A stretch of 41,892 bases of DNA from positions 1 through 41,892 of the IMG/VR virus record IMGVR_UViG_3300035703_000173; one strand, given 5' to 3'. A program made the position numbers and the translations under genes. The notes below the pieces were generated by a model. That model was not told the DNA's origin and searched no databases. It saw nothing but the letters and a program-made list of their open reading frames with translations. This stretch comes from a virus. Shown here piece by piece: positions 16,484 through 30,410 of the stretch (position 1 is the stretch's first letter; every line of letters begins with the position of its first letter).

Positions 16484-16692
16484 CGGTGTTCATCTCTCCC
16501 CTTCTGTAGCATCATCTGATACAGGATCTCTACTTTTTCTTCTAACCTAATGACAGAATCTTTCAGTGAACTGCCAGAGTTTGGCTTAAGTTCTGCTAGG
16601 TAATGCTTAACTAACCAGCGAACACCGGTAGCAAACCCACCTACAACTGTGCATACAGCTACGGCAATAGCCGCGTAGTCTTGTGCCTGCAT
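16480..16692 (-). CDS. Small membrane protein with coiled coil, lysis-associated
   Basis: Residues 5-25 (DYAAIAVAVCTVVGGFATGV) form one transmembrane segment. They are followed by a charged stretch and a coiled-coil-like C-terminal half (DSVIRLEEKVEILYQMMLQ). This resembles the single-pass proteins that accompany holins in actinophage lysis cassettes. It overlaps both the endolysin gene and the large tail gene. Confidence 0.6.
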   Translation of the reverse strand: MQAQDYAAIAVAVCTVVGGFATGVRWLVKHYLAELKPNSGSSLKDSVIRLEEKVEILYQMMLQKGRDEHR

Positions 16693-18899
16693 TAGACCGT
16701 CCTAATGGTTACTAAGAGCAATCCACCAAACCCAGTGAATCGCTTATCCGATGGTGTTGTGTTTCTAAAATCAAGTTCTTCGATAAGTCCGATGTAGGAC
16801 TCACCAGTTCTAAAGTCTTCAACACGGATGGTGTCACCTACGTTTTCAATAGATTCAAGTTGTGACATACGGAAGTAAGCAGAATCTTCGTAGCCAACCT
16901 CAACCCCATTGTGATCTGATTCGTGGTCAAAGCAAGACAGTGGATACTGGATGAGTCGCTGACGTGGGATAGCAGGTAGCGCCTTGATCTGGTAACCAGT
17001 AAACAGCGGTCCCTTAGAGCTATCAGTAGTTGAACGAGTCAATGTAAACTGGAATCCAAGGTACTCTTGTGATGCCTGTGGATAGTTAATGTTAATCTCT
17101 GGAACCAATGACTCTTGCGAGAAGGTACCAATGCGATAGAAGTTATCGGCATAATCAATAGAGTCAATCAATAGTCCACCGTTGGTGGTATCTACACGAG
17201 CCTGCATCAGCTTGAAGATCTTGAGTTCTAGTGTGTTGTATCGGACATAGCCTGTACGCAGGAAGCCCTCTTCTAGTAACTCTGCTGCAGACTGGACATA
17301 GATAGTTCCATCTGAGCCATTGCCTGCATTACAAAATGCTAGGCGGTTTGTATCTCCAAGGAAGGCAGATGCTGTGGTGTAGTGACCCAATGTATCTGCT
17401 GGGTCATACAGGTCGTAGGCATAAGGGAACAAAAGGTTACCTAATGGCTGACCCATATCTACACGGGTTAGGCCTGCTTGTCCATCAACACCAGATGCAG
17501 CCCAGATGTATCTGTCACGGAAAGCAAAGTCATAGACAGGCTGAGTTGATTCAAAGATTAAAGCACCGTAGGTAATAGAGCCATCGAGCTGACTTGCATC
17601 TGCCATACGCATACCCTTAGAGGTACCGATAGCCATATTGCCAAGGTAGTAACTAATCTTAAATACGATCTCACCTACTGGTAGTTCTGCTGCAGTGATA
17701 GCAGATGTCAGTGTTGGCATAGCACCAGCGGTAGACAAGGTAAACTTGTAGATGTTGGACTGGATGCCACTGTATCCTGCAATATAGATAGCTGCGCCAC
17801 TAGATGTAATGCTTGTATAGATGTGGTCTGGATCGTTGTGCGAATATACAGGGCTAGGTAGTGACGTTGCGCTGCTTGAGAACTCGTAGACCTTATCGTT
17901 AACACACATAACGATACGCTCTTTGGTGTACTCCATTACAGCGTTAGTTACAGTGATGCCGTTATCGCTAATCATTAACGTAGGCGATACAGAACTATCA
18001 TCAGATAGCAACTTCTTATACACTCTAAGGCGTGGAGTACCGCTGTTGAGTACGTTAGTAACCCAGTAGGCATAGACACCATCATCACAGATAGCGTGTA
18101 CTGGATAGTCAGTACCTGAGATGTAATCAATGAAGTGGATAATGTCGGAATAGCCAGTACCTACTGGAGATACCGCAGCAGATGGAACGTCAGCTGCAGT
18201 CTTGGCATAGGTAAAGGTAGTAGTGGTAGGTACGCTGGTAATGCGATACTCACCGTTGAACGTAGCATCTACACCTGAAACAACAATCTGCATACCAGTA
18301 GATAGGCCGTGTGCTGCAGTTGTGGTTAGCGTTGCAACGTTAGATGTCAGCGCCTTGTTGTTAATAGATACAGTAATCGCTGGGAATGTCTTATCTACAT
18401 CGTACTCATCAGAGACAAGCACACCGTTGTAGGTATTGCTGTTCTTATCCCATTGGATAGAGCGCATATACTGCCACGGACGACCATTGGTTTGAATGCC
18501 ACCAGTAATAGTGTGTTGCTTAGCACAAGAGTTCAGCAGTGTTGCCTGTCCCTTGGTCCAGACGTTGATACCCTTAGACTCTGTGTACTGAAAGCGTAGT
18601 GACTCTTCTTGGATAGGCTCAAAGAACTTGATGCCTTGTCCATAGTGGAAAGAGCTTTGGGATCTAAGCCACCAACCAGTCAGTGTTTGCTCACCAGGCT
18701 CACGGCTCTGGTCAATTTGTTGCTTACGATACTGCGCTGTTACGCGACGATATGGTGAATCATCACTGTTCAGCAAGAAGAACGGTAGGCCTGCGATTGC
18801 CACATCGTAGGCTTCACCTGTTGCTGAATAGTTGGTAGACCCTGCGGGGTTAGACAGTGTATACGGTATTGCCTCGGTGATGTCGTCGCCATATGGCAC
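16692..18899 (-). CDS. Large tail protein with an Ig-like module
   Basis: The 735-residue protein is beta-rich. Residues 183-250 form an Ig-like module recognisable by LTSNVATLTTTAAHGLSTG and FTYAKTA; nearly the same module interrupts the major capsid protein at 29232-30410. Residues about 255-560 have a repeating strand pattern (DGVYAYWV, IYIAGYSG, RYIWAASG) suggestive of a beta-propeller. It is the first large gene upstream of the lysis cassette, where tail tip or tail tube B-like proteins usually lie. A role in the tail or host recognition is inferred; the exact part is unknown. Confidence 0.65.
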   Translation of the reverse strand: MPYGDDITEAIPYTLSNPAGSTNYSATGEAYDVAIAGLPFFLLNSDDSPYRRVTAQYRKQQIDQSREPGEQTLTGWWLRSQSSFHYGQGIKFFEPIQEESLRFQYTESKGINVWTKGQATLLNSCAKQHTITGGIQTNGRPWQYMRSIQWDKNSNTYNGVLVSDEYDVDKTFPAITVSINNKALTSNVATLTTTAAHGLSTGMQIVVSGVDATFNGEYRITSVPTTTTFTYAKTAADVPSAAVSPVGTGYSDIIHFIDYISGTDYPVHAICDDGVYAYWVTNVLNSGTPRLRVYKKLLSDDSSVSPTLMISDNGITVTNAVMEYTKERIVMCVNDKVYEFSSSATSLPSPVYSHNDPDHIYTSITSSGAAIYIAGYSGIQSNIYKFTLSTAGAMPTLTSAITAAELPVGEIVFKISYYLGNMAIGTSKGMRMADASQLDGSITYGALIFESTQPVYDFAFRDRYIWAASGVDGQAGLTRVDMGQPLGNLLFPYAYDLYDPADTLGHYTTASAFLGDTNRLAFCNAGNGSDGTIYVQSAAELLEEGFLRTGYVRYNTLELKIFKLMQARVDTTNGGLLIDSIDYADNFYRIGTFSQESLVPEININYPQASQEYLGFQFTLTRSTTDSSKGPLFTGYQIKALPAIPRQRLIQYPLSCFDHESDHNGVEVGYEDSAYFRMSQLESIENVGDTIRVEDFRTGESYIGLIEELDFRNTTPSDKRFTGFGGLLLVTIRTV

Positions 18900-18937: not shown

Positions 18938-19162
18938 TTACTTAGATAGTGCTGCAATTTCTTCGGCTGTTAAACCTAGTGCTGCTAGCTTTGCTTCTGC
19001 GTTAGCCTTAGCCTCAGCAACTGCTGCTGCTGCTGCCTCTTCTTCGTGGCGGCGTGCTTCTGCCTCTGCTGCTGCTGCTTCGTTTGCTGCGATCTCTTCT
19101 GCTGTTAGTGGACGCTCTGTCACTACACCAGTTTCGCAATTGATTTCTACTGCTGTTGTCAT
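18938..19162 (-). CDS. Ala/Glu-rich coiled-coil protein
   Basis: The 74-residue protein consists of a short beta N-terminus (AVEINCETGVVTERPLT) and an Ala/Glu-rich helix (EEIAANEAAAAEAEARRHEEE) with repeated GLTAEEIAAL-like ends. It is flanked by tail genes. Small proteins of this type often act as chaperones or oligomerisation elements of tail fibres, but that is inference. Confidence 0.65.
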   Translation of the reverse strand: MTTAVEINCETGVVTERPLTAEEIAANEAAAAEAEARRHEEEAAAAAVAEAKANAEAKLAALGLTAEEIAALSK

Positions 19163-19178: not shown

Positions 19179-19712
19179 TTATGAGTTTTTGATGCCGTAT
19201 AGATAGAAAGATGAACCTGATGCAATACTGCTATTACTATTAGTTATTCTGATTGAGGTAACAGCAGCTGAGTTTCTCCAAAGTCCGGCAACAACATCAA
19301 TAACATTAACGGTGCTGCTGTTGTTTTCTTTTACTCCATAAATACTTAAAGGCTTGTTTGCGCTTAAAGTATAGTTTGGTAGATACATTTCAACATTGTT
19401 AAAAGTGTTAGATGTTGTTCCCGTGTCATTTTCCAATGCGTAACCTTGCAACCAATAGAAATTGCTTTGTCGTAATGAAAATGCAGATGAACCTTCGCCA
19501 ATTAATTCAGTCATAGAATAATCTGAACCAGCAGGGCTACCGTTTATAGATACAACCCAAGTGATGTTACCTGAACCTGCATTTGCTCTAGTGCTTGCCT
19601 TCAAGATTAAATCCGTATAGGTGCTAGGAATAGCAGAAAAGGTAACAGATGCAGCAGAACTGCTAAGGACATTGGATGAGATGAGTGTGTAGGTACTAGG
19701 CAACTGACTCAC
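19179..19712 (-). CDS. Adhesin-like tail protein A (cassette 2, type III)
   Basis: The 177-residue protein has the family's N-terminal motif ASVTFSAIPSTYTDLIL and its C-terminal SGSSFYLYGIK. Its closest relative in the window is protein D (21382-21897): both have an LI(A/S)S..VL start, an IPxYTxSxNKPxS strand and a VAGLWRNS-like segment. It is the last member of the second three-gene cassette. Its 5' end overlaps the HNH gene by 17 bases. A receptor-binding or fibre-tip role is inferred. Confidence 0.65.
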   Translation of the reverse strand: MSQLPSTYTLISSNVLSSSAASVTFSAIPSTYTDLILKASTRANAGSGNITWVVSINGSPAGSDYSMTELIGEGSSAFSLRQSNFYWLQGYALENDTGTTSNTFNNVEMYLPNYTLSANKPLSIYGVKENNSSTVNVIDVVAGLWRNSAAVTSIRITNSNSSIASGSSFYLYGIKNS

Positions 19713-20268
19713 CCACTAACTTGTCTGGTGCATACTGCTTGAGAATCTCTATAGCGTGTACCACTTTGTCCTCTACTCTCTGTCCAGCGGGCTGCCCTTT
19801 GGACCATAGTTCTAGGTTTTCAATACGGTTATCTGAACGGTTACCGTTCTTATGATGCACTGATTCATCTGGTAATAAACTACGACCAAGTGATTCTGAC
19901 ATTACTAATCTGTGTTCTAATATGTGACCATTAGTATTTGAGTTTGGATGTTCTGGCTTGTATATCTTTACGTATCCATCTGCATTTACTATTGCATTAC
20001 CGCTTCTTAACTTGCCATCTGCTTTGTGCGGATCACCATACAAAGCATTTCTACGGTAGTGCATCTGGCACATACCTTGAGCTGTGTGTTCTTTATCGCA
20101 ACCTTCTATGGTGCAATGAGTGTGCTTAAGGTTGTTGCCGTGTGGTGCATTGCCTAGTGGATCGCCCCACTTCTTCCACCTCACGTGGTGAGTAGAGCAA
20201 TACATTTTATATCTCTTAGCTCTGTGACAACCTTTGACCTGACAAGGATATTCATTAGCGTATGGCAT
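19696..20268 (-). CDS. HNH homing endonuclease 1 with two N-terminal zinc modules
   Basis: The 190-residue protein begins with two tandem modules of the form C..GC....Y.MYCS.H and GDPLG (residues about 8-38 and 52-82), each likely a zinc-binding DNA-recognition unit. They are followed by the HNH core HILEHRLVMSESLGR, DESVHHKNGNRSDNRIENLELW. This is the design of free-standing homing endonucleases. It lies between adhesin genes B and A, so cleavage of a phage lacking it could drive its own spread together with flanking adhesin sequence. Confidence 0.85.
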   Translation of the reverse strand: MPYANEYPCQVKGCHRAKRYKMYCSTHHVRWKKWGDPLGNAPHGNNLKHTHCTIEGCDKEHTAQGMCQMHYRRNALYGDPHKADGKLRSGNAIVNADGYVKIYKPEHPNSNTNGHILEHRLVMSESLGRSLLPDESVHHKNGNRSDNRIENLELWSKGQPAGQRVEDKVVHAIEILKQYAPDKLVGESVA

Positions 20269-20283
20269 AGTTAATTATATCCG

Positions 20284-20775
20284 TTAAGCGGACTTTATCC
20301 CATACAGAGTAGCGATTGTGCCAGCAGCAAATGTGCTTGTAGAAGATACTAGATCTAACCTGCTAATTGCAGTAGTAGATCGATAAAGTCCAACCTGTCT
20401 TGTGACGTAACCAGATCCGTTTTTATCAGCGCAAACTTCCATTAACAAAGTTTTAAAAGTTGATCCGGCATAAGAAAAGACATCATAAGTAATCATTGAA
20501 ATGGTTGTGTCAAATAAATTATAAGCCTGTCTAATTTGAGTTTGTGAAGTTTGTGTTGTGCTACCTGCGGTAGAGCCATCGCCATTTAAATTGGTTTGAC
20601 TGTATAAAGCAGATGAGTCGTTATTAAATCTCAACCAAGCGTTTGATGTACTTGTTCCAGTACCGACTAAAACAAGTCGTAAATCAGTCCAAGAAGTTGC
20701 AATGCTTGTAAAACTGATAGATGCTGCTGCACTACCTAAAGTCGTGGTAGCGATTGGCTCGTATGTTGCTGGCAT
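20284..20775 (-). CDS. Adhesin-like tail protein B (cassette 2, type II)
   Basis: The 163-residue beta-rich protein opens with IATTTLGSAAASISFTSIA and closes with AAGTIATLYGIK. It shares the internal DVFSYAGSTFKT strand with protein E (21907-22404, DIFSYAGSTNKT), its counterpart in the first cassette. No signal peptide or enzyme motif is visible. It is probably a virion surface or fibre-tip domain. Confidence 0.65.
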   Translation of the reverse strand: MPATYEPIATTTLGSAAASISFTSIATSWTDLRLVLVGTGTSTSNAWLRFNNDSSALYSQTNLNGDGSTAGSTTQTSQTQIRQAYNLFDTTISMITYDVFSYAGSTFKTLLMEVCADKNGSGYVTRQVGLYRSTTAISRLDLVSSTSTFAAGTIATLYGIKSA

Positions 20776-21381
20776 TTACGCCCCCTTGATTCCGTATAGT
20801 GCGAAGGTTGAACCTACAGTCCAGTTACCATCTTGCCCAATTAGTTTAATTGAGTTAATTGCGGAAGTGTTCATCCATAACATAGAGGATAAATAAACTC
20901 TATTGGCTGAAACTTCCCCATTAGTGTCAAAACCAGCAAAAGCGCGAAGAGTTTTATTCTGTGTAGTAATCGCATAATTATGTAAATCTATGATTCCAAC
21001 TCCGTAAATGCTGGTAGTTGTTGGGCTGTCTAATCCTTGCGTGATTTTTTGTAATTGAGTAGCCTGTGCTATTGCGGATGATCCCTCACCATAAAGAGCG
21101 TGGAAATAATAATTTGATGAGGTGGTATCACCATTTAACTCACAACGAATAGTTGTATTATTGTAAGATCCATAAGCAGCACTAGCCATAAATCTAATTT
21201 GTAAAGATGTATAAGTGCTAGGAATAGAGCTAAAGGTTATTGAAGATACAGCAGTACCCACATTTATAGTAGCAATAGACTCAAAGCTGCTTGGAATGTA
21301 AGCAGCGTTAGGACCAAGGAAGTCGTTGTACTTTTGCAGGTTAGTAAAACTAGAGCCTGTCTTTATACTTGTGATTGCCAT
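20776..21381 (-). CDS. Adhesin-like tail protein C (cassette 2, type I, anchored)
   Basis: The 201-residue protein has an extra N-terminal segment of about 30 residues (MAITSIKTGSSF...KYNDFLGPNAAYIP) before the family core SSITFSSIPSTYTSLQIRF, and ends GSTFALYGIKGA. The extra segment is shared in pattern with protein F and may attach the protein to the virion, which would make types II and III partner subunits. It also shares HNYxxTTQNKT with F. It opens the second cassette. Confidence 0.65.
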   Translation of the reverse strand: MAITSIKTGSSFTNLQKYNDFLGPNAAYIPSSFESIATINVGTAVSSITFSSIPSTYTSLQIRFMASAAYGSYNNTTIRCELNGDTTSSNYYFHALYGEGSSAIAQATQLQKITQGLDSPTTTSIYGVGIIDLHNYAITTQNKTLRAFAGFDTNGEVSANRVYLSSMLWMNTSAINSIKLIGQDGNWTVGSTFALYGIKGA

Positions 21382-21897
21382 TTAGCTTGCCAATCCGTAG
21401 AGGTAGAATGATGATCCTGCTGCAAATGCAGTTCCAGCAGATGCGGCAGTTATTGTAGAGATTGCAGATGTATTACGGAATAAGCCAGCAATTGCGCTCA
21501 TTCCTAGTGATGTTGAATTGCGTTCTCTAAATGAAACCAAACTTACTGGCTTGTTTTGACTTGCCGTGTAAGAAGGAATGTAAATCTCAGATACACCGAA
21601 TGTGTCAGCTGTATCTCCGCTTGCTGTTCCGAATAAATACGAGGATGTTCCAAATGGGTCTGTATTAGATGTTCTAGTGCTTCCCACAGATGATGTTCCT
21701 TCAGCGTGTATTTCTGTCTCAGAATACTGACCAGCACTACCACCTACGCTTAACGTGTAATTGTAAGAGTTAGTTGTATTTCTGCAAGTGACCCTCAACA
21801 CTAGATCCTTATATGTTCCAGGAATAGCGCTAAAGGTTACAGTTGCTGCGCTTGTACCCAATACTTGCGAGGCAATAAGTTGTCTTGATGATGGCAT
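21382..21897 (-). CDS. Adhesin-like tail protein D (cassette 1, type III)
   Basis: The 171-residue protein opens LIASQVLGTSAATVTFSAIP and ends FAAGSSFYLYGLAS. It aligns along its length with protein A, including the IPSYTASQNKPVS strand and AGLFRNTSAIS. It is the third gene of the first cassette and its stop directly abuts the start of C. It is a predicted beta-sandwich virion protein; function inferred. Confidence 0.65.
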   Translation of the reverse strand: MPSSRQLIASQVLGTSAATVTFSAIPGTYKDLVLRVTCRNTTNSYNYTLSVGGSAGQYSETEIHAEGTSSVGSTRTSNTDPFGTSSYLFGTASGDTADTFGVSEIYIPSYTASQNKPVSLVSFRERNSTSLGMSAIAGLFRNTSAISTITAASAGTAFAAGSSFYLYGLAS

Positions 21898-21906
21898 TAT
21901 TCCCCC

Positions 21907-22404
21907 TTAGAGTATTCCGTATAGTGTGGCTGTGGTGCCAGCAGCCATTGTTGTTCCGCTAACATTAAGACTGACAGATGTTATAGCACCAGTATTGCGC
22001 CACATTTGAACTGCAATTGTAGCTGCACCGCCACCATTAGAATCAGTGCTTTCATTAGTAAAAACAGTTTTATTGGTAGAACCTGCATACGAGAAGATAT
22101 CCATTGTTCTCAAAGTTGGAATTGTGGTACTCAAATTATCATTAATACCCAAACTTATAAAAGCAATGTTTGTTCCTCTTTGTGAATAAACAGCAGATCC
22201 ATCACCCAGCAAAGATGTTCTTGAATAATTAGTTCCAGTATCAGAATTAAACTGTGCCCTAAGTCCAGTTGCTGATGTTGCGGTTCCAACAAAAACAATT
22301 CTTAAATCAGTATAAGTAGCAGGGATGCTAGTAAAAACAATACTGCTGGCAGCACTGCCAAGTGTGGTAGTTGCAATAGCAACCTCTGTTGAAGTATCTG
22401 GCAT
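21907..22404 (-). CDS. Adhesin-like tail protein E (cassette 1, type II)
   Basis: The 165-residue protein opens AIATTTLGSAASSIVFTSIP and ends AAGTTATLYGIL. It pairs with protein B through the shared opening and DIFSYAGSTNKT. The motif LRAQFNSDTGTNYSRTSLLG resembles a strand-loop common in marine and freshwater phage adhesins, from memory. Its ATG overlaps the stop of HNH2. Confidence 0.65.
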   Translation of the reverse strand: MPDTSTEVAIATTTLGSAASSIVFTSIPATYTDLRIVFVGTATSATGLRAQFNSDTGTNYSRTSLLGDGSAVYSQRGTNIAFISLGINDNLSTTIPTLRTMDIFSYAGSTNKTVFTNESTDSNGGGAATIAVQMWRNTGAITSVSLNVSGTTMAAGTTATLYGIL

Positions 22405-22775
22405 TATTTAACCAACTTTCTTTTTGCCCAACTAGCTCTGCGACGTACCCTGTTGCACTCAGCACATTCACGCTTGCCGTTTTTGCGTACCATTATGTTC
22501 TCCGCAACAAAAGAATGCCCTTGTGGACAATTGCTTTTATTATCAATGTTATGTTTTCCAGCCATAACATTTTCTTTTTGTGTTACAGCGCGTAAATGGT
22601 CTGGTGCTACACAAGCGCGATTGCTGCATAGATGATCAATTACCAGTCCTTTGGCAATAGGTCCATTAAGTAATTCCCAAGATACTCTATGAGAACCTGT
22701 AGTTTTACCATTAAATACAGTAAACGTGTAACCAGTTTTTTGTATCTTTTTATCAGGAATAATACAGTCAGTCAT
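22404..22775 (-). CDS. HNH homing endonuclease 2
   Basis: The 123-residue protein has an HNH core HRVSWELLNGPIAKGLVIDHLC-type run followed by CVAPDHLRAVTQKENVM. A C-terminal zinc element (CPQGH...CAECN) ends in a basic tail. The ATG at 22775 overlaps the stop of gene F (TGATG); a GTG one codon earlier is possible. It is unrelated in layout to HNH1 and sits at a different junction of the sister cassette, between F and E. Confidence 0.82.
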   Translation of the reverse strand: MTDCIIPDKKIQKTGYTFTVFNGKTTGSHRVSWELLNGPIAKGLVIDHLCSNRACVAPDHLRAVTQKENVMAGKHNIDNKSNCPQGHSFVAENIMVRKNGKRECAECNRVRRRASWAKRKLVK

Positions 22776-23356
22776 CACTTCATCCCATACAGTGCGAAGG
22801 TGGAACCGCTAGAAAAAGTACCGCTACTCATATAGATTCTCAGGCTTGTAATTGCAGAAGTGTTACGCCATAGGCCAGATGCTAAAACAACTTCTCCTGA
22901 ACCATTTAGATCTACGCCGCCAAAACTTCTAATAGTTTTATTTTGAGTTGTTGATGTGTAATTATGTATGTCCACAATTGAGCCTGTTGGATAAGTTGTT
23001 GAACTTCCGTTAATAATTGTTGGTAGAAAATTAAATGAAGTGTTAATAGAATAACTGGCAGATGCGGCAGAGCCATTACCACGCAGCCAATGGTTATCAT
23101 AGATGCCTGATGAGCTGCCGTTAATTTCTAACAACAAGCCATTCCCAGATACAGATGCAAGCCAGTTCATTCTAATTTGCAATGATGAATAAGTCTGTGG
23201 GATAGAACTAAAGGTAACGCTTGATACACCTGAACCATTAATACGTTGAATCAAGAACGTAGCAGCAGGATCATAGCCAGCATTGCCAGCCAACATTGAG
23301 CGATACTTAGGAAAGCCCTGCAATACCGATGAGGATTTTACTCTCGATACGGCCAT
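22775..23356 (-). CDS. Adhesin-like tail protein F (cassette 1, type I, anchored)
   Basis: The 193-residue protein has the anchor-like N-terminus (MAVSRVKSSSV...KYRSMLAGNAGYDP) before the family core VSSVTFSSIPQTYSSLQIRM, and ends SGSTFALYGMK. The anchor pattern and IHNYTSTTQNKTIRSFGG match protein C. It is the first adhesin gene of the first cassette, directly after a small structural gene. Confidence 0.65.
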   Translation of the reverse strand: MAVSRVKSSSVLQGFPKYRSMLAGNAGYDPAATFLIQRINGSGVSSVTFSSIPQTYSSLQIRMNWLASVSGNGLLLEINGSSSGIYDNHWLRGNGSAASASYSINTSFNFLPTIINGSSTTYPTGSIVDIHNYTSTTQNKTIRSFGGVDLNGSGEVVLASGLWRNTSAITSLRIYMSSGTFSSGSTFALYGMK

Positions 23357-23358
23357 AA

Positions 23359-23688
23359 TTAAGAAATCTCAGATCCGAAGGCTGTGAATGTTAGGTTAGC
23401 TGTTGAGGCATACACAGTGATTACATCTGTTGCGTTCAGTGTGATACCAAGAGTTAGTGCTGTTGAATCAGATGCGCCTACTGTTACATCATATGCAACG
23501 TACTGGCTGTTAGCCAATGCTGCACCAGCAACACGTACTGCAATACGAAATGTTGCAGATGATGCTGTTAGATTAGCAATAACGATTGTTGATACTACTG
23601 CCTGTGTAGCAGATGGAACTGTGTATAGAGTTGTTGCAGTTGTTGCACTTGGGTTGGACTGACCAAGCACCTTGTAAGTTGTTGCCAT
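23359..23688 (-). CDS. Small beta-rich virion protein
   Basis: The 109-residue protein (MATTYKVLGQSNPS, then TLYTVPSATQAVVSTIVIANL) has the strand pattern of a small beta-sandwich found next to fibre genes in many phages. The ATG has AAGGAG upstream. It precedes the adhesin cassettes and may be a fibre-attachment or collar component; function inferred. Confidence 0.6.
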   Translation of the reverse strand: MATTYKVLGQSNPSATTATTLYTVPSATQAVVSTIVIANLTASSATFRIAVRVAGAALANSQYVAYDVTVGASDSTALTLGITLNATDVITVYASTANLTFTAFGSEIS

Positions 23689-23719: not shown

Positions 23720-24259
23720 TTATGCACCCATTAGCATAAATACATCTGATACTGAACTTCCACCACCAGTGGAATCTGCCCATTTGACACCCAGTGTTTG
23801 GGTTGAGTCTGCTGTCAGTACTTGACCGTTAGTTCCCACGGCAAGGTTATCTACTACACCACTTGCACTGGCAACGAGTAGGTCTGCCTTGGCAGTTACT
23901 ACTGATTCAGGGATTGCTGCATCTGCTGTAGCCACACCTGTTGTGTAGAAGGTAAGGTCGGCGCTAGTTAAGACGTGCTTGACTGATGCACCTGCGGTAT
24001 GTGAGATGGCAGAAGTTCCTGCTTGCCCACGAACAATTGTTAGAGTGTCGCTGTTGACTTGAGTAACGTAGACAATTTCTTCATTCTGTGTATCTACGTC
24101 AATAGCGACGGTAAAGATATCCACGTTGCCAGCAGCAAGAGTCACACCTCCCATAAGGGCAGAACCTGTACCAGATGCAACAGTCATTGATGTTGCACTG
24201 TTAGAGATTCCCGCAGCTAGCGTTGTCTCAACGCTAATGGATGAATACTTACGAGTCAT
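23720..24259 (-). CDS. Tail-fibre-like structural protein
   Basis: The 179-residue protein has a beta-rich N-terminal domain (TTLAAGISNSATSMTVASGTG, EEIVYVTQVNSDTLTIVRGQ) typical of virion attachment domains, and a C-terminal segment (KADLLVASASGVVDNLAVGT, GQVLTADSTQTLGVKW) common near the ends of phage fibres. It lies between the adaptor-like gene and the adhesin cassette. Confidence 0.6.
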   Translation of the reverse strand: MTRKYSSISVETTLAAGISNSATSMTVASGTGSALMGGVTLAAGNVDIFTVAIDVDTQNEEIVYVTQVNSDTLTIVRGQAGTSAISHTAGASVKHVLTSADLTFYTTGVATADAAIPESVVTAKADLLVASASGVVDNLAVGTNGQVLTADSTQTLGVKWADSTGGGSSVSDVFMLMGA

Positions 24260-24268
24260 TGGCTTTCC

Positions 24269-25171
24269 TTATCGGGTGTAGTGAATACGGATTGGATACT
24301 TGTCTGCTAACTTCAGAGCTTCTTCATTGAGTCGCTGTTGATAGAGAGCAAAGATGTAACGAGATGCGGCAGCACCGGCAGATGATGGTAACTTGCTATC
24401 GTTTAGATCGGCCTCAGCACTAGAGAGATTGATTCGTCCAGCGTCAAGGTAAGACAGTAGTTTGTATGATGCGCCGAGGACAACAACATCCTTACAAGAC
24501 TCTGGTAGGCCAGTAACGTCAGCAAAATCATCTGTGTTTGCGTCAAGAGTGTTCGGCGTTGCGGTATACCAAACTTGAATTGTACGACCAGGTTGTACGT
24601 TCTCATAGATGTTAAGTGTATTGTTTGTATTAAAGGTAGCAGCATTAGCCATACCGTCTAAGCGCCAGCGATTTACTGGTAGCCATTCTTGGCTAGAACC
24701 TGTTGTCTGCCAAGAGATAAATAGAACACCCTCAACATCATCTGGTAGTGGGTATGTAACCTGAGATGCGTTAAAGGTGAATGTGTAAGAGTTAATAATC
24801 CAGAGCTTCGGATAGAAGCTGTTGATCGTATCGTTAATAGCCTTCTTAATGGAGTTACGTGGGAAGGTTGGAGATAAAGTTACCGGTGCATACTGTGAGT
24901 GAGGCGATGCAGTAGTTCCTTGGTATCCACGACCAAAGCCTGGGATAACGTTAAGCACGTTATTGGCCTTGTCAAATGAATCAATCCAGATTAGTTCATC
25001 ATCAATTTCAATAATACCTTTGGCTAGGTTAGAAGATGAGCCAACGGTAATTTGGGTGCTAGTAGTAGTTAAACCAGCAGGGTTAGCAACGTAAGTAATA
25101 CGGTCTTGGCGCAGTGCATAACCTTGCAGGTTAGCCTTTACCTCGTCCACCAGTTCGTTGAGTGTTGGCAT
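24269..25171 (-). CDS. Head-tail adaptor-like protein
   Basis: The 300-residue protein begins with a helix (PTLNELVDEVKANLQGY), has a beta-rich middle and ends in a helical part (LPESCKDVVVLGASYKLLSYLDAGRINL). This combination recalls phage connector or neck proteins, and the position downstream of the capsid genes fits. The exact family is not certain. It overlaps the glycosyltransferase stop by one base. Confidence 0.55.
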   Translation of the reverse strand: MPTLNELVDEVKANLQGYALRQDRITYVANPAGLTTTSTQITVGSSSNLAKGIIEIDDELIWIDSFDKANNVLNVIPGFGRGYQGTTASPHSQYAPVTLSPTFPRNSIKKAINDTINSFYPKLWIINSYTFTFNASQVTYPLPDDVEGVLFISWQTTGSSQEWLPVNRWRLDGMANAATFNTNNTLNIYENVQPGRTIQVWYTATPNTLDANTDDFADVTGLPESCKDVVVLGASYKLLSYLDAGRINLSSAEADLNDSKLPSSAGAAASRYIFALYQQRLNEEALKLADKYPIRIHYTR

Positions 25172-26232
25172 TATTTCCTTTCATACCAGCCGTCTCCCCA
25201 TAGAGTAAGAAGCCGTGCAAAGTATTGTTCGTATTGTGGTGCGATAGCATCCAAGGAGTACAAGGACACTGCTCGCTTATGTATTGCTACTGGGTCTAAA
25301 CTCTTAACCCACTCTGTAGCTACTGCAAACTCCATTGCATTTCTGCAACGGTATCCAGTAACGCCTTGTGGATTAGTTTCTGTAAATGCTCCCCAGTCTG
25401 TGGTAATCGTTGGAGTTCCACAGGTTTGTGCTTCGATAACGACGTTACCGAAAGGTTCTATGTATAGCGTTGGTGCAAACAAGGCGATAGCACCGCCCAT
25501 TAACTTTGCTCGCTCTTCAGGACCTACTGGTCCTACCCATTCGCCATACTCGACTTTAGGATCTTTGCCAGGACCTGCAAGAATAAGTTTCAAGCCCATC
25601 TCTTTGCATACGTGCTGGGCAATCCCAATTCCTTTGCGATCTACCATACGTCCTACGTACAGGTAGTAATCTTCTTTCTTCTCTTGCAGCGGAAACATCT
25701 CTGGTTCTAAGTAACCAGGTATAACCGCATCATAGAAGTTGCCATCTACTAGCGTTGGATTCTTAAACATTGCATAGATGCTGTGCATCCAAGCGTATGA
25801 TTCAAAGACCCTGTACTTGCTAAATACTCCACCGTAACCGACACCAAACTCTACGCTGATGTGGTTAGGGTAGGCATCTGCTATTGGCTTCTGTGATGCT
25901 CCACCGATAAGACAGATAAAATCTTTCTGCTCTAGGCGCTTGCCTAGTTCTTCAATAGCCTTGCCATTAAAGATCTGCCAGTGTGGTAATTCATTATTAA
26001 ACTCAGCCTCTGTAAAGTGTTTACCCGCCAGAGCCTTTTGCTGTTGCTCTTTAGTAATGCAGGTAATTAACTCATCTACTGGAGCTTCATTATCTTCACT
26101 GGCATAGAGATAGACCGTATGGCCTAACCCTTTCATCATCATACAAAAGCGCCTGACCTTTTCGGTATAAGCGCAGTTGACGTAATCTTTAGTTGTTTGT
26201 GTATGCGGTAGGCTAATAACGTGGAATCTCAT
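25171..26232 (-). CDS. Glycosyltransferase, GT4 family (GT-B fold)
   Basis: The 353-residue protein has the C-terminal Rossmann half of GT4 enzymes: [12 protein letters not shown] for donor binding, LILAGPG, and [18 protein letters not shown] with the ExxxxxxxE motif. It transfers a sugar from a nucleotide-activated donor. It is embedded in the virion-gene operon between the adaptor-like gene and the collagen-like gene, so a virion protein or the host surface is the likely target. No signal peptide is present. The acceptor is unknown. Confidence 0.85.
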
Positions 26233-29231: not shown

Positions 29232-30410
29232 TTATCCGTTTGTTGCTGCTGACTCAATGCGATAGAGAGCAGCTTCACGAAGGCGTGCAAAGCCTCCGAA
29301 GTAGTACCAACCGATTGTGCGGAAACGACGTAGCGCATCAATCTCTGGACCGATAACGGTTGAGATGTCTGCAGCCTGTGCTTCAGCCAATGCTTCACGA
29401 CCAGCGACGATTGCGCGGTAGTTGTTGGTGAATGTAACAGTACCTGTGTCAGCAACTGATGTGATGTTAGATGCTGTTAGTGCATAGGTAAATGTTGTTG
29501 ATGTTGTACCTGTGATGGTGAATGTGCCGTTAACACCTGTGTTAGTTGTAGCAGCAACTGTTACAACCTGACCTGTTCCGAGGCCGTGAGCAACTGCTGT
29601 AGTAATTGTTACTACGTTAGATGTCAAAGCAACGTTGGTGATAGCAACTGTAGGTGTGATACCTGTAGCCAACTTTAGACCGTTTAGAACACGTGGTGTC
29701 TCAACGATGAAAGCGCCTTCGATAACGCCTACTGCACCAGCAACGAACGGTGTACGCTCAACGTACTTTGTTAGCTCCTGGAATCCACCAGTACCAGTCT
29801 CAGCGCGTAGGTCTGCTGACTGACGTGGGTGTAGGTATGCAGCATATAGTTCACCCATACGAGGCAATGCCTTGTTTGTGCGTAGTGATACAACAGCGTT
29901 GCGGATGTCTGCAACTGTCATTGTGTCTACTGGTAGAACTGTTGCTGATGATGTTGGAGCAGTTCCTGATGGACCGTTTGAGTAGATCACGTTAGTTCCT
30001 GCTGAGAGGACCTGACCTACTACGTTGTCAATAGAGTCTGCTGCGTTGTACGCGATGATGTCAGCAAGAGCTGAATCAACGTCGTTGAAAGAAGTTAGGT
30101 TTAGCTTCTTTGTTGTTGTAACTGCTGAACCGTATTCGTTCAGTGTTACTGTAACCTGTGATGGGTTACCTAGTGCAATGCTTGATACATCTGAAGATTC
30201 TGTCAATGTAGATGTAGCCTGAGCCAAATCTGAATAGATTGAGAATACAACTGATGATCCTGGCATTGCCTGTTGCACTGGCTTAACATCTGCAAGTGAA
30301 CGCATAACAGGAATAGAGCGAAGCGCCATTCTTACATACTGGTCGTATGCTGTTTGTACGAGGTTGCTGATGCTAGACGTGGTGGTAGGGGTACCTGTTG
30401 GGATAGCCAT
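29232..30410 (-). CDS. Major capsid protein, N4-gp56 family, with an Ig-like insertion
   Basis: The 392-residue protein matches the N4-gp56 type of HK97-fold capsid protein: ADVKPVQQAMPGSSVVFSIYSDL, VTVTLNEYGSAVTTTKKL, and the end VIGPEIDALRRFRTIGWYYFGG...ALYRIE. Residues about 259-327 (LTSNVVTITTAVAHGLGTG to DTGTVTF) are an extra Ig-like module between NGLKLATG and YRAIVAGREAL, probably displayed on the capsid surface. The same module is in the tail protein at 16692-18899. A scaffold-like gene lies upstream, the usual order. Confidence 0.9.
   Translation of the reverse strand: MAIPTGTPTTTSSISNLVQTAYDQYVRMALRSIPVMRSLADVKPVQQAMPGSSVVFSIYSDLAQATSTLTESSDVSSIALGNPSQVTVTLNEYGSAVTTTKKLNLTSFNDVDSALADIIAYNAADSIDNVVGQVLSAGTNVIYSNGPSGTAPTSSATVLPVDTMTVADIRNAVVSLRTNKALPRMGELYAAYLHPRQSADLRAETGTGGFQELTKYVERTPFVAGAVGVIEGAFIVETPRVLNGLKLATGITPTVAITNVALTSNVVTITTAVAHGLGTGQVVTVAATTNTGVNGTFTITGTTSTTFTYALTASNITSVADTGTVTFTNNYRAIVAGREALAEAQAADISTVIGPEIDALRRFRTIGWYYFGGFARLREAALYRIESAATNG

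Follow-up and report, generated by a model that had tools for sequence, protein, structure and literature searches.

The window (the whole stretch analysed, 41,892 nucleotides of IMG/VR virus record IMGVR_UViG_3300035703_000173) carries two adjoining triplets of adhesin-like genes, F-E-D (triplet 1) and C-B-A (triplet 2). Judging from gene sequence and arrangement, we consider it reasonably probable that an anchored F, one E and one D would form a hetero-oligomeric, lectin-like receptor-binding head, and that the triplets are cassettes exchangeable in two slots.

Gene map and pairing of the six proteins

The eight genes listed in this region by the first-pass annotation were confirmed at their positions, all on the minus strand. 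These genes and the neighbouring features, with the evidence for each assignment, are as follows.

23720..24259 (-): Y179, tail-fibre-like gene, upstream of the adhesin locus
23359..23688 (-): X109, conserved tail gene immediately upstream of slot 1
22775..23356 (-): F, putative anchored first subunit of triplet 1 (slot 1), 193 aa, predicted beta-sandwich head; best match is C, 43% over the full length
23267..23356 (-): putative N-terminal anchor segment of F, ~30 aa, slot-1 type; identity to L011 and L012 anchors and end of the DNA match
22404..22778 (-): HNH1, predicted HNH_3 endonuclease at the F-E junction; same type at the same junction in L010, L074 and L148
21907..22404 (-): E, putative second subunit of triplet 1, 165 aa, no anchor; BLASTP and trees
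21382..21897 (-): D, putative third subunit of triplet 1, 171 aa, no anchor; BLASTP and trees
20776..21381 (-): C, putative anchored first subunit of triplet 2 (slot 2), 201 aa; BLASTP, trees and AF2 beta sandwich
21292..21381 (-): putative N-terminal anchor segment of C, ~30 aa, slot-2 type; identity to the slot-2 anchors of L011 and L012
20284..20775 (-): B, putative second subunit of triplet 2 (E type), 163 aa; BLASTP and trees
19696..20268 (-): HNH2, predicted HNH_3 endonuclease at the B-A (E-D) junction; same place in L026, L099, L158 and L132
19703..20293 (-): HNH2 insertion, 591 nt, relative to the empty E-D junction of L037, L027 and L050
19179..19703 (-): A, putative third subunit of triplet 2 (D type), 174 aa from TTG; BLASTP, trees and AF2
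18938..19162 (-): K74, small conserved gene closing the adhesin locus
16692..18899 (-): P735, conserved 735-aa tail gene, used as backbone marker

Gene A had been called as 19179-19712, but the TTG at 19703 is the likelier start. The GC content of the triplet region is 38-41%, compared with 45-49% in the flanks.

All-against-all BLASTP gave F-C (135 bits), E-B (130 bits) and D-A (130 bits) as the best pairs, with every cross pair at 60-94 bits, and a small tree of the six proteins grouped D with A (0.999) and E with B (0.973). Alignment and tree agree with the pairs named in the first-pass annotation, and the anchor-like N-terminal segment described there (about 28-30 residues) was confirmed in F and C alone among the six. 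Searches of Pfam returned no match for any of the six proteins, including PF21722 (Gly_rich_2) and the collar domain PF07484, and no convincing match was found among the PHROGs. A search of the whole record for a reverse transcriptase (PF00078) had no match, as the first reading of the sequence had held, while the same search was positive in three control genomes; a diversity-generating retroelement was dismissed on this basis.

Single-chain AF2 predictions gave a confident beta sandwich for both C (mean pLDDT 85) and A (mean pLDDT 88). No solved homologue of the triplet proteins was found by sequence, nor a convincing one by fold. When the models were used in a PDB fold search, C had no match at E ≤ 0.001 and A had one weak match (TM 0.34). 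Lectin resemblances lay near TM 0.4, the modelled folds having a weak likeness to galectin and other sugar-binding folds, and gp37 was absent among the fold matches listed for the C and A models. Many predicted-structure relatives occur in uncultured tailed phages; the annotations of some read tail fibre, collagen-repeat or glycine-rich protein.

An old three-gene unit and its two slots

Hundreds of relatives were fetched from viral contigs with an alignment of the six proteins as bait; C alone had no match in the same kind of search. As such baits rest on conserved motifs, the common type is favoured. Nearly every fetched locus contained three members in a row, and the first two locus sets together gave 110 F-E-D triplets from 104 sources. 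Gene position corresponded to clade without exception in a tree built from 234 domains (F 79/79, E 79/79 and D 76/76); one-gene relatives were placed outside the F, E and D clades. To counter the bias towards F, a second search was made with D and E as baits, yielding 98 loci (deduplicated by sequence, with some contigs overlapping the first locus set). Each contained F-E-D once or twice, except for loci cut by a contig end, and no lone E or D was found among them away from contig ends. A triplet related to F-E-D was seen in about 200 viral contigs from metagenomes, most relatives holding one triplet only, and also in one uncultured actinobacterium MAG. The sole reordered triplet was that of L166 (E-F-D). 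Gene order, clades and N-termini support the earlier proposal of a three-gene adhesin unit with one anchored member and two partners, and indicate that F-E-D is an old unit. We found no description of this phage triplet in the literature.

The members differ in what precedes and follows the domain. F has a median of 26 residues ahead of it (more than 10 in every full-length F), compared with a median of 2 in E and D. A small number of E and D genes, and F genes of the L027/L037 type, are called with a long N-terminus. In each case the ORF caller appears to have chosen a start that overlaps the preceding gene, and these apparent extra anchors were dismissed as probable artefacts. In L166, it is the first gene, E, that has the extra N-terminal stretch and F has none; therefore, one anchor per three heads seems to be kept despite the changed order. 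C-terminal extensions, either glycine-rich (Gly_rich_2) or of other kinds, were found in 12 of 96 triplets: on both E and D in eight, on D alone in four and on F in none. Two loci (L124:7694-9445 and L134:7697-9436) encode a D-type member with a fibronectin-like stretch and a long stretch of unassigned fold; a Pfam search of the extended L124 member returned no match. The one-gene relative L035 has a collagen-like stretch ahead of its head.

The closest relatives of the window, L011 and L012, carry a glycine-rich one-gene adhesin in slot 1 (with a PF21722 domain in L011) and a triplet in slot 2. The window F anchor is identical to their slot-1 adhesin anchors at 24/30 (L011) and 22/30 (L012) positions, and the window C anchor to their slot-2 F anchors at 23/30 (L011) and 21/30 (L012), whereas cross-slot identity is 11-13/30. 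At the DNA level, the window and L012 match (79%) across X109 and as far as the end of the F anchor, where the match breaks off. Because it ends there and the anchors are slot-matched, the slot-1 anchor appears to stay in place while the head is replaced. The anchor peptide MPILGIFASSISGSKA is common to F of L097 and the glycine-rich adhesin of L115 at the same locus, and F proteins and glycine-rich adhesins also have another class of anchor in common, M(S/T)PILGIxAS. These patterns indicate two adhesin slots, each with a slot-specific N-terminal anchor, with a triplet in both slots here; we infer the anchor role of the peptide from this shared use.

The first-pass annotation had read the two triplets as a block duplication. 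A recent tandem duplication of the whole triplet in this lineage would accord with their adjacency and common order, and the large tree does pair D with A, if weakly (support 0.75). However, the copies (F/C 45%, E/B 49% and D/A 42% identical) are as alike as those of random phage pairs, falling at the 61st, 82nd and 54th percentiles, respectively, of pairs from different loci. In the large tree, ordering the 78 other F-type domains by their closeness to C puts F in 64th place, C comes 14th in the order by closeness to F, and the E/B ranks are 25-27, such that the two triplets are not mutual nearest relatives. The F and C anchors are of different slots, and junctions common with other phages are marked in C-B-A, not in F-E-D. 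Other double-triplet loci show the same pattern, with copies that are not specially close. We dismissed a recent tandem duplication on the closeness ranks and identity percentiles, and consider it very improbable.

Exchange of the triplet and the HNH genes

Inter-triplet distances of F, E and D correlate with each other (r 0.45-0.56, permutation maximum 0.13), while triplet distances and P735 distances do not (r about 0); phages with P735 proteins that are 96% alike have triplets only 42-54% alike. In several phage pairs, one member is 86-99% alike and the others about 42-62%. Because these pairs match closely in one member alone, members move singly as well, and any partner interface must therefore be permissive. 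For example, L078 and L135 are 95% alike in F and 60% and 42% alike in E and D, and an HNH gene in L135 lies exactly at the border. The triplet moves between phages mostly as a block, with single members replaced too. The comparison with relatives that the first-pass annotation had proposed turned up single-triplet loci, HNH-less loci and swapped members alike.

In triplet 2, the start regions of B and A have raised synonymous identity with 19 of 87 and 17 of 86 loci, respectively, compared with about 0-4 for inner windows. Raised start regions are absent in triplet 1, and codon identity at shared residues, taken over all pairs, is flat along the genes. On account of this flatness, conserved DNA junctions were dismissed as a general recombination signal, and the start-region effect is considered local because it is raised only in triplet 2 of the window.

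Both nuclease genes have a match to PF13392 (HNH_3; 54 and 40.9 bits, cut-off 24.8), but the similarity between HNH1 and HNH2 is slight. Their locations between F and E and between B and A are as first described, but a nuclease for each copy is no rule: HNH genes are absent from most triplets and otherwise occur at the F-E or E-D junction, behind D or behind P735. The HNH2 site is empty in the relatives L037, L027 and L050 (E-D junction), and gene A starts with TTG in the window versus ATG at the empty site, as is likewise the case for L026 and L099. The DNA of this junction is conserved among many phages. HNH1 and HNH2 are probably free-standing homing endonucleases. They resemble known enzymes of this kind (PF13392) in their domain, optional presence, insertion at junctions and, for HNH2, an empty site in relatives; cleavage and homing belong to the known enzymes and are predicted here from sequence. 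HNH2-type genes are also found directly after the P735-type gene in L109, L112, L113, L117, L119, L120 and L123, making this a second preferred site for the type in the tail module, and two different HNH2-type genes occur in one adhesin locus (at E-D and behind D) in both L099:5636-7171 and L158:2040-3575.

The first-pass annotation is supported in placing these genes in a region of heavy exchange. The HNH genes would be optional passengers at triplet junctions that may raise the local exchange rate. We tentatively add the possibility, itself somewhat unlikely, that they cleave HNH-less junctions in co-infecting phages, with repair and flanking coconversion then replacing the neighbouring subunit. 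The conserved DNA at the HNH2 junction, the position of the L135 gene at a mosaic border and the raised identity at the B and A starts are consistent with such a process, but most mosaic pairs are without an HNH gene, and raised start regions are a weak effect over the full set and missing from triplet 1.

Proposed assembly and comparison with known systems

Trimeric phage receptor-binding proteins are usually encoded by one gene. In the assembly proposed here, a slot-specific anchor peptide would dock the adhesin on the tail, and could bear either a one-gene glycine-rich adhesin or the three-gene beta-sandwich F-E-D. E and D would join the anchored F in what is most likely a single lectin-like head, a 1:1:1 heterotrimer, that would bind a sugar or receptor, with E and D as the members able to bear an extra C-terminal tip. 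An anchored hetero-oligomer is favoured because there is one anchor per three heads, tips are found on E and D, the heads are predicted beta sandwiches and one-gene relatives exist. The stoichiometry is probably that of a 1:1:1 heterotrimer, although the strict 1:1:1 gene content is also compatible with a stepwise F-E-D stack or with an adhesin and two accessory partners. Natural E-D or F-E fusions were sought as proof of contact and none were found.

The presence of an anchor on F only, and of extra tip domains on D or on E and D but never on F, would also suit an arrangement in which F makes up the fibre tip, with accessory roles for E and D either as assembly factors or as chained F-E-D tip adhesins, in the manner that gp38 caps gp37 in T-even phages. 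We judge this unlikely: the three proteins have a common fold, are close in length and share their diagnostic motifs, which is unusual for a chaperone or cap, and the existence of one-gene relatives suggests that this domain is able to act as a fibre head by itself. If F, E and D were instead three independent adhesins used separately, the window would encode six receptor specificities. Each protein does contain a complete head domain and single members are replaceable alone, but E and D have no anchor and, contig ends aside, never occur alone among the 98 loci, making separate use highly improbable. For the hetero-oligomeric head, if F/C, E/B and D/A act as interchangeable types, combinatorial assembly of the two triplets would give up to eight anchored head types from six genes, with swaps between co-infecting phages tuning receptor choice by thirds; we regard this extension as decidedly doubtful.

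The nearest precedent is the tail of virophage DSLV2, reported in 2025 (PMC12724248), in which three consecutive genes encode proteins that co-purify as a 1:1:1 complex; the principle of a heterotrimeric tail is therefore already known. Both systems have three consecutive genes of similar size that fall into position-specific groups. DSLV2 is a virophage whose proteins have a T4 gp37-like fold and the collar domain PF07484, whereas the phage triplet lacks PF07484 and has a different predicted fold, one anchor per set, two slots and exchange with one-gene glycine-rich heads. Predicted fold, slot system and viruses thus differ from DSLV2, the distinction being drawn from domains, predicted fold and gene arrangement. 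Glycine-rich phage adhesins (PF21722; compare T-even gp38) share the locus and the anchor peptides, and some phages carry their domain as a fusion to E and D, but the window heads are predicted beta sandwiches with no Pfam match. In aquatic phages with variable receptor-binding islands, a near-constant backbone accompanies strongly divergent receptor-binding genes, and homing endonucleases are frequent among the variable genes (PMC7468147). The locus described here is alike in these respects; in those islands, however, what varies is single tail fibre or C1q genes, whereas the varying unit here is a set of three genes.

If the proposed assembly is correct, it would represent a widespread heteromeric receptor-binding protein in tailed phages (about 200 metagenome contigs), a testable case of a homomeric fibre head becoming an obligate hetero-oligomer with part exchange, and an annotation rule for hundreds of genes now without a Pfam or PHROG family.

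The 392-aa capsid protein of the window (29232-30410) matches major capsid proteins of Streptomyces phages, and for this reason an actinobacterial host is likely; the phage probably infects freshwater actinobacteria. A 67-residue segment with 48% identity recurs in this protein (residues 254-320) and in P735 (residues 176-242), and resembles an exchangeable surface domain. A collagen-like tail gene (PF01391, 26242-27141) adjoins a glycosyltransferase gene (25171-26232) whose product may act on virion proteins, and this arrangement is kept in many relatives.
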